Assembly (NCBI GenBank): GCA_003599055.1 | Contig: QZIM01000012.1 | Coordinates: 1 to 64,000, forward strand | DNA length: 64,000 nt | Reading direction: 5' to 3' | Source of the DNA: Candidatus Woesearchaeota archaeon | GTDB lineage: Archaea; Nanobdellota; Nanobdellia; Woesearchaeales; ARS49 | Shown: positions 3,978-59,731 of the stretch, one piece after another | Numbering within the stretch: the first letter of the stretch is position 1 | How the letters are laid out: the number at the start of each line of letters is the position of its first letter | The notes under the pieces: generated by a model | Told to the model about the DNA's origin: nothing | The model's database searches: none | What the model saw: the letters and a program-made list of their open reading frames with translations, nothing else | Made by a program: the position numbers and the translations under genes

Positions 3978-4048
3978 CGCCGCCGCCCGGATTTGAACCG
4001 GATACGGAAAATCACAGACTTCATCAGCGATTTTCCAACACCGGTTCA
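3978..4048 (-). repeat. truncated 3'-end copy of tRNA-Ser(GGA) with a 31-nt hairpin (4006-4036) in place of the variable arm
   Basis: Minus strand …GGAAAATCGCTGATGAAGTCTGTGATTTTCCGTATCCGGTTCAAATCCGGGCGGCGGCG repeats the T arm and acceptor of the tRNA at 4092-4175. Confidence 0.8.
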
Positions 4049-4091
4049 CATCCTCGCCCCATCTGAAAAATGGACTTCGTCCTCGTCTTAA

Positions 4092-4175
4092 CGCCGCCGC
4101 CCGGATTTGAACCGGGAAATCCTTGCGGAAACGGGATTTCCAATCCCGCGCAGTACCAGGTTGTGCCACGGCGGC
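4092..4175 (-). tRNA. tRNA-Ser (GGA)
   Basis: GCCGCCG/CGGCGGC acceptor, anticodon arm CGGGA-TTGGAAA-TCCCG, long variable arm TTTCCGCAAGGATTT, T arm CCCGGTTCAAATCCGGG. Confidence 0.92.
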
Positions 4176-4220
4176 AATATTTTTTTGTTTTTCTTAGGAA
4201 GGCGTATTTAAATGCTTGCA

Positions 4221-4316
4221 CGGGATTTCCAATTCCGCGTAGCCACAGAAATCCGCTGATTTCTGGGGTTCCGAAAACCGCAAGGTTTTCGAGATACCAG
4301 GTTGTGCCACGGCGGC
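4221..4316 (-). repeat. truncated 5'-half copy of tRNA-Ser(GGA) with a ~52-nt two-hairpin insertion
   Basis: Minus strand GCCGCCGTGGCACAACCTGGTA[TCTCGAAAACC…GGATTTCTGTGG]CTACGCGGAATTGGAAATCCCG; no T arm or 3' acceptor. Confidence 0.8.
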
Positions 4317-4372
4317 AAAAATGATGCTGGCTGTGTTGAGTTTTTCAGAAGGGGTTATTTAAATGCTCTGCT

Positions 4373-4465
4373 GATTTCCGATTCCGCGCAGCCACAGAAA
4401 TCCGCTGATTTCTGGGGTTCCGAAAACCGCAAGGTTTTCGAGATACCGGGTTGTGCCACGGCGGC
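4373..4465 (-). repeat. second truncated 5'-half copy of tRNA-Ser(GGA) with the same two-hairpin insertion
   Basis: Same structure as 4221-4316; own upstream TATTTAAAT box at ~4493-4504, near-identical to the flank of the full tRNA. Confidence 0.8.
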
Positions 4466-4556
4466 AATATTTTTTGTTTTTCTTAGGAAGACGTATTTAA
4501 ATGCTTGTGCCGGATGAGCCGTCAGGTTTTTAAAATGGCGCAAGGGTGGCTTTTTT

Positions 4557-10254: not shown

Positions 10255-10347
10255 TACCTGCGGGAGCAGCGCTCCTGCGCCTTTTTCTTTTTCTGGATTT
10301 GAACCCTTGGGTTCATTTCAGACTGAGCGCAGCGAAGGATGAAAACT

Positions 10348-10385
10348 CGAAAACCGCAGGTTTTCGTGCAATCCCGGCGTCGGCA
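10348..10385 (+). repeat. hairpin (CGAAAACCgcaGGTTTTCG) joined to truncated 3'-end copy of tRNA-Glu
   Basis: TTTTCGTG-CAATCCCGGCGTCGGCA repeats the last 17 nt of the tRNA ~130 bp downstream. Confidence 0.75.
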
Positions 10386-41249: not shown

Positions 41250-41300
41250 TCGGCAAGGACAGAGACCTTTCCACAAAAACAACAAGGATGCGAACGGGTT

Positions 41301-41359
41301 GGAAAATCGCTGATGCAGTCGGTGATTTTCCGTATCCGGTTCAAATCCGGGTGGCCGCG
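41301..41359 (+). repeat. 31-nt hairpin joined to truncated 3'-end copy of tRNA-Ser(TGA)
   Basis: GGAAAATCGCTGATGCAGTCGGTGATTTTCC-GTATCCGGTTCAAATCCGGGTGGCCGCG; differs from the module at 3978-4048 at only two positions within the 31-nt hairpin, both in the loop. Confidence 0.8.
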
Positions 41360-59597: not shown

Positions 59598-59731
59598 CGG
59601 GCCGTGAGGGGATTGAACCCTCGACCACCCGATATCGCCTTGCAGCGCTTGCGTTTGGCAAGCCCGCAGTAAGAGTCTCACCAAATTCCGTAAAGGAATC
59701 TACGGGTGCTCTACCGCTGAGCTAACGGCCC
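59598..59731 (-). tRNA. tRNA-Lys (CTT) with two introns (approx. 59677-59702 and 59634-59669)
   Basis: Spliced: GGGCCGTTAGCTCAGCGGTAGAGCACCCGACTCTTAATCGGGTGGTCGAGGGTTCAATCCCCTCACGGCCCG, a complete 72-nt cloverleaf only if two segments of ~26 and ~36 nt are removed. Confidence 0.8.

Follow-up and report, generated by a model that had tools for sequence, protein, structure and literature searches.

We analysed a window of 64,000 nucleotides (nt), positions 1–64,000 of contig QZIM01000012.1, from a Candidatus Woesearchaeota archaeon whose draft genome (GCA_003599055.1) comprises 1.15 Mb in 26 contigs and is 88.7% complete. Positions 3978–4517 hold, on the minus strand, an intact transfer RNA (tRNA) gene, tRNA-Ser(GGA), with two 5' pieces of the same tRNA before it and a 3' piece behind it. 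We assign a probability of roughly 0.55 to the reading that the array is an instance of a recurrent arrangement: another copy of a tRNA surrounds a gene for that tRNA, with its 5' part upstream and its 3' part downstream, and in the window this outer gene has decayed. In the cleanest cases the outer copy remains complete, its intron hairpin holds the entire inner gene, and a stem of 10–15 base pairs (bp) would bring the outer halves together. Below, L numbers denote tRNA loci and G numbers the genomes compared.

The tRNA-Ser(GGA) array

The elements of the array lie on the minus strand in the order given by the original prediction, namely two units of TATA box and 5' piece with insert (A and B), a TATA box with the complete tRNA, and the 3' piece; the boxes, resembling a B recognition element (BRE) with TATA box, were identified from sequence.

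4494–4505, minus strand: BRE/TATA-like box of unit A, AGCATTTAAATA
4370–4465, minus strand: 5' piece A, with exon 1 at 4465–4444, D-loop insert at 4443–4392 and exon 2 at 4391–4370; anticodon stem decayed
4356–4367, minus strand: BRE/TATA-like box of unit B, AGCATTTAAATA
4220–4316, minus strand: 5' piece B, with exon 1 at 4316–4295, D-loop insert at 4294–4243 and exon 2, with anticodon GGA, at 4242–4220
4205–4216, minus strand: BRE/TATA-like box of the intact gene, AGCATTTAAATA
4092–4175, minus strand: intact tRNA-Ser(GGA) (ARAGORN; Rfam, 53.4 bits)
4072–4082, minus strand: small hairpin GGACGAAGTCC after the tRNA; L041 and L046 have similar hairpins in this position
4002–4052, minus strand: antisense T-arm copy (4052–4041), 3x3 internal loop and hairpin core TGGAAAATCGCTGATGAAGTCTGTGATTTTCCG (4037–4005)
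3978–4001, minus strand: 3' copy CCGGTTCAAATCCGGGCGGCGGCG, spanning the T arm through the discriminator base and matching the final 24 nt of the intact gene without a difference

The 52-nt insert (TCTCGAAAACC...TTCTGTGG) contains two hairpins, shows no differences between A and B, and sits in both exactly where it had been placed, in the D region after GGTA, its other boundary being the 3' strand of the D stem (CTGCGCGG in A, CTACGCGG in B). When it is removed (4443–4392 or 4294–4243), exons 1 and 2 give the same D arm as the intact gene. The predicted duplication of the promoter also held, the flanks of A and of the intact gene (~40 nt, 41 alignment columns) being one base and one insertion/deletion apart, and the flank of unit B has diverged, although A and B have the insert in common. 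By promoter A thus groups with the intact gene, by insert with B, and such conflicting relationships imply recombination rather than one simple duplication. The boxes stand 36 nt (A), 47 nt (B) and 37 nt (intact gene) from their genes, and TTTAAATA occurs nine times in the window compared to 1.9 expected, three of the nine in this array, whose repeat periods are 138 and 151 nt. A scan with a sigma-70 promoter model, which does not apply to archaea, gave no matches, and the 64 kb contain no further copy of the 16-nt 5' or 3' end of tRNA-Ser(GGA). Absent from the original description is GATGTGAACCGG (4052–4041), which lies upstream of the 3' piece, is a near-complement of that piece's own T arm and is separated from it by a long hairpin.

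Both 5' pieces stop short of the variable arm and the 3' piece begins at the T stem, thus neither A nor B with the 3' piece includes the long variable arm of a tRNA-Ser, and no complete outer tRNA-Ser results. (ARAGORN calls a naive in silico join of B and the 3' piece as a 72-nt tRNA lacking the long variable arm; the join is of our own making and is no evidence.) In addition, A has a damaged anticodon stem and the inner gene has no inverted repeat around it, which makes it probable that the outer gene is broken. The closest parallels are L041 and L053, in which a 5' piece with D-loop insert, ending in the anticodon arm, directly precedes an intact tRNA-Ser; the inserts there and in L095 are two-hairpin inserts at the same D-loop site. 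The tRNA-Ser(GGA) locus of a same-genus genome (L067) has a 3' unit only, with no 5' copies, and a core type different from that at the same tRNA in the window. Taken with the missing flanking repeat and the missing complete outer tRNA, these loci lead us to prefer a reading in which the outer gene has decayed and its promoter and 5' exon were duplicated; most likely, as far as its sequence indicates, the window carries a working tRNA surrounded by such a decayed outer gene with tandem duplication. The order of parts is kept (promoter and 5' exon with D-loop intron, twice, then the intact gene, then the 3' exon), A and B may have arisen by tandem duplication and exchange of promoter and 5' exon, and the likely products are one normal tRNA-Ser(GGA) and dispensable transcripts.

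The suggestion that the array records repeated insertion and repair at one locus stands in broad terms, in that partial copies, both nested and in tandem, are present at many tRNA loci of relatives and the relationships of A, B and the intact gene imply recombination. In related genomes the arrangement recurs (L041, L053), and the same-genus locus is without 5' copies. At another locus, L051/L106 (G006:C10), two partial tRNA-Ser(CGA) 5' copies with several hairpin inserts lie upstream of an intact one, and the downstream 3' part matches neither of them.

It is possible that A and B are transcribed into 5' fragments, as each keeps a TATA box at tRNA-like spacing. We consider it quite improbable, however, that transcription from their own promoters yields tRNA-Ser-like 5' RNAs that are stable and have a separate role, or that they serve as alternative 5' exons. 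Such functions would accord with the conservation and similar spacing of all three boxes and with the identity of the insert in A and B despite diverged exon 2 sequences, but insert identity can also follow from recent duplication or gene conversion, no conserved structure was shown beyond the two hairpins, and the same locus of the same-genus genome has no 5' pieces. L041 and L053 provide comparable 5' pieces, with no separate TATA box visible between piece and gene. No evidence was found for splicing of upstream 5' copies, as alternative 5' exons, to the 3' exon of the inner gene. An assembly artefact is conceivable for a draft, metagenome-assembled genome, but is scarcely credible here given that substitutions distinguish A, B and the intact gene and that the arrangement recurs in other assemblies with different sequences.

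tRNA genes nested inside tRNA genes

A complete tRNA gene lies inside the intron of a second tRNA gene at eight loci in seven genomes, making nine layers: L207 (Arg, source genome), L131 (Pro, G001), L039 and L040 (Ser, G017), L024 (Ser, G026), L020 (Ser, G007), L042 (Ser, G020) and L264 (Val, G055, which belongs to another family). At L207, the outer tRNA is read from position 1 up to position 23; next come a two-hairpin intron, one stem arm (GGAAAACAAA), the whole of tRNA-Arg(GCG), the opposite arm (TTTGTTTTCC) and the remainder of the outer tRNA. L042 (G020:C11:8300–9145) is a double nest, a tRNA-Ser within a tRNA-Ser within a tRNA-Ser; the first hairpin of its middle gene's intron contains a TATA-like AACCTTTATAATG. 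The anticodons of inner and outer tRNAs agree wherever they can be read, and once the outer exons are joined in silico ARAGORN reads a tRNA with the anticodon of the inner gene.

Acceptor pairing provides a test that is independent of the exon borders chosen. The two outer acceptor strands suit each other better than they suit the inner gene in five of the nine layers: L039 (7 Watson-Crick pairs compared to 5 with the inner gene), L024 (7/7 compared to 4/7), L264 (7 compared to 5), and both the outer (7 compared to 4–5) and middle (6/7 compared to 2–3/7) layers of L042. At L207, L131, L040 and L020 inner and outer copies are too similar for the test to discriminate. Inverted repeats of 10–15 bp flank the inner gene in eight of the nine layers, and for six of these none of 500 shuffles per layer did as well. 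When the 60-nt flanks of 174 tRNA loci in six genomes were surveyed for perfect inverted repeats of at least 10 bp, only four genes had one, namely the four nested genes of that set.

We propose that both tRNAs would be carried by one transcript, from which RNase P and RNase Z would free the inner tRNA, while splicing endonuclease and RtcB ligase would join the outer exons. The genome encodes a splicing endonuclease, EndA (PF01974, 105 bits; a single short protein of 195 amino acids), and RtcB (565 bits). More tentatively, at somewhat under even odds, we suggest that Woesearchaeota-like archaea keep whole tRNA genes within the introns of a duplicate gene for the same tRNA and that a single transcript yields both mature tRNAs (RNase P and Z excising the inner one while the inverted-repeat stem holds the outer halves for splicing), that this 'tRNA-in-tRNA' form is a stepping stone to split tRNA genes, and that flanking 5' and 3' units, including those of the window, represent stages of its gain and loss.

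Partial copies and hairpin units

Beyond what the original prediction had described, partial tRNA copies are a genome-wide phenomenon and not a local oddity. We searched the 500 nt downstream of each tRNA for its own last 14 nt (at most one mismatch) and found a copy for 20 of 41 tRNA genes in the source genome, representing many isotypes, and for 9 of 30 in the same-genus genome; the same search using the 3' end of a different tRNA gave 0/1568 and 0/836 matches, respectively. Further genomes gave 4/30 (G013), 2/30 (G017), 7/30 (G055) and 1/14 (G036), counts that are by themselves weaker since the controls there returned a few cross matches (1 to 5 per 176 to 820 tests). A simple copy count at 22 loci of three additional genomes found one case, in the same family, thus the phenomenon is uneven across the order. 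Pooled over six genomes, 43 of the 3' copies lay downstream and none upstream, while 15 of the 5' copies lay upstream and one downstream; tandem duplication with a breakpoint inside the gene yields the same direction, which is therefore no proof of nesting on its own. The first copy follows within a narrow range, about 60–230 nt from the tRNA. Among 69 tRNA-Ser loci of the family the association of 5' with 3' copies is suggestive only (Fisher P = 0.088). In G036, a single contig rated 100% complete, a continuous tRNA model finds only 14 tRNA genes, which suggests that its tRNA genes are heavily interrupted. An intron-containing tRNA of 134 nt in the window (59598–59731, minus strand) was detected by Rfam and missed by ARAGORN.

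A typical 3' unit consists of a small hairpin, a spacer, an antisense T arm or acceptor strand, a hairpin, and the 3' copy up to the discriminator base. Some include a two-hairpin T-loop insert with a GUA or GCA end before AUCC, like complete multi-intron tRNAs. Two further units lie in the window:

10255–10385, plus strand: 3' unit after tRNA-Glu(CTC), with antisense T arm, two-hairpin T-loop insert and 3' copy ending at 10385
41250–41359, plus strand: 3' unit after tRNA-Ser(TGA), with hairpin core at 41306–41327 and 3' copy ending at 41359

The antisense arms fit their own tRNA better than the tRNAs of other units (0/5000 permutations as good, four genomes pooled). The hairpin core ATCGCTGAYGNNNTNNGTGATT has five copies in the genome, all inside 3' units (Ser GGA, CGA and TGA, Glu, Leu) and each followed by the 3' end of the local tRNA; a core of this type occurs once among the sister-genome loci covered, likewise in a unit. 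Around 60 nt of the tRNA-Ile unit are nearly identical between the source and same-genus species, although its spacer cannot be aligned; conservation does not extend to other orthologous units of these genomes, and selection on the units is thus not shown in general. Elsewhere, tRNA-Pro (L122/L219, G000:C1:120393–120463 and downstream) is followed by at least three tandem units of ~98 nt, each ending in that tRNA's own 3' end, and downstream of the tRNA at L022 (G055:C40) are tandem mini-helix copies made of tRNA-Ser 5' and 3' acceptor strands with a hairpin. Mirror units (the tRNA's initial 12 nt, then a hairpin, with an antisense copy) lie upstream of the intact or outer tRNA at L025, L085, L014 and L040. 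The hairpin cores were considered as C/D-box elements, but the features, judged by eye, are inconsistent between copies; retro-copying that stopped at the T loop found no support, the copies ending at the discriminator base without CCA.

Partial copies might instead be scars of integrative elements, which duplicate the 3' (or 5') end of a tRNA gene on integration and leave remnants between direct repeats when the element is deleted. The trace that archaeal integrases usually leave is a direct repeat of a tRNA end, the 5' fragment upstream of an intron-bearing tRNA at the Caldiarchaeum tRNA-Thr locus has been so explained (PMC3293823), the direction of the copies agrees, and the window contains such a repeat (24 nt, ending 114 nt downstream). 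We nevertheless regard this origin as unlikely. The spacing to the first copy is narrow (63–230 nt), the 90 nt between the window repeats hold hairpins only, too little room for an integrase or other gene, and none of the five window tRNAs has a far 3' copy. Antisense arms are fitted to the local tRNA, and a hairpin core with five copies in the genome is confined to such units. Scars would not predict inverted repeats around complete nested tRNAs.

A spread of selfish elements, short hairpin introns of bulge-helix-bulge (BHB) type that duplicate an exon end on insertion and leave the tRNA intact, would account for the constant orientation of the core (ATCGCTGAYG..GTGATT) to the tRNA in five units here and one in the sister genome, and for the different core types of the window and L067. 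We rate it as highly improbable, as no mobile machinery was identified, the locally fitted arms require an additional copying step, and the 3x3 internal loops of one unit class are no known splicing substrate; attempts to fit a BHB to these units gave none.

Several observations weigh against enclosure by a second, spliced tRNA copy, the reading we prefer. The flanks of the intact gene in the window share an inverted repeat of 6 bp only, as do those of L042's outermost layer; at L040 and L264 the repeats barely exceed those of shuffled flanks, being equalled by 1/500 and 2/500 shuffles. Several outer exon borders were chosen to match a tRNA, which favours recognition, and those of L024, the middle layer of L042 and L264 were adjusted after a first failure or misreading, which biases the ARAGORN test. 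Most 3' copies are without an upstream 5' partner, and nesting cannot explain these unless the 5' copy was lost. Finally, a canonical BHB was sought by hand at the D-loop insert and the L131 nested-intron junction and none could be drawn; the minimum-energy folds of A and B are near-continuous helices with single-base bulges. Relaxed BHB motifs are known substrates of some endonucleases (PMC12397907).

Comparison with known disrupted tRNA genes

For the question of how intron-containing and split tRNA genes originate, a lineage in which copies of one tRNA may be intact, partial, nested once or nested twice offers a graded series. If the outer tRNAs mature, one transcript would give two tRNAs, one in the intron of the other. 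Annotators should be aware that tRNA fragments beside tRNA genes in these genomes may be exons and not scars. The literature on disrupted archaeal tRNAs describes introns, split genes, permuted genes and integration fragments; we found no report of nested or intron-embedded archaeal tRNA genes in the literature searched, whose coverage left out most subscription papers, and novelty is therefore provisional.

BHB introns at non-canonical positions, e.g. in Thermoproteales (PMC8450103, PMC4090602), resemble the present inserts in lying cleanly in the D loop, anticodon arm, variable arm or T loop, in occurring several to a gene, and in the presence of EndA and RtcB. The design seen here is different, with two hairpins, no canonical BHB found, a single short EndA detected, and an intron that can contain an entire tRNA gene. 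Fragments that stem from integrated elements (PMC9897764) are likewise partial copies in the form of direct repeats of tRNA ends, whereas here there is no element, the spacing is tight and antisense arms are fitted to the local tRNA. At Caldiarchaeum subterraneum tRNA-Thr(GGU) (PMC3293823), too, a 5' fragment precedes a complete tRNA with an extra intron, but there with 1.8 kb spacing and a recombinase gene; here the spacing is 60–230 nt and non-coding, the occurrence genome-wide and 3' copies dominant.

Circularly permuted tRNA genes (PMC3978253) share the rearranged halves, but in the reverse order to the 5' upstream and 3' downstream parts seen here, where no 3' copy lay upstream. Nanoarchaeum equitans and Desulfurococcales have split tRNAs, joined by trans-splicing (PMC3218864), with separate 5' and 3' parts and complementary stretches that unite the halves. 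Halves that form a complete tRNA, together with complementary stretches, are lacking in the window and present in the nested loci (the stretches in 8/9 layers), where, unlike in split tRNAs, both parts lie in cis around a complete tRNA gene with the same anticodon and the outer tRNA is redundant.
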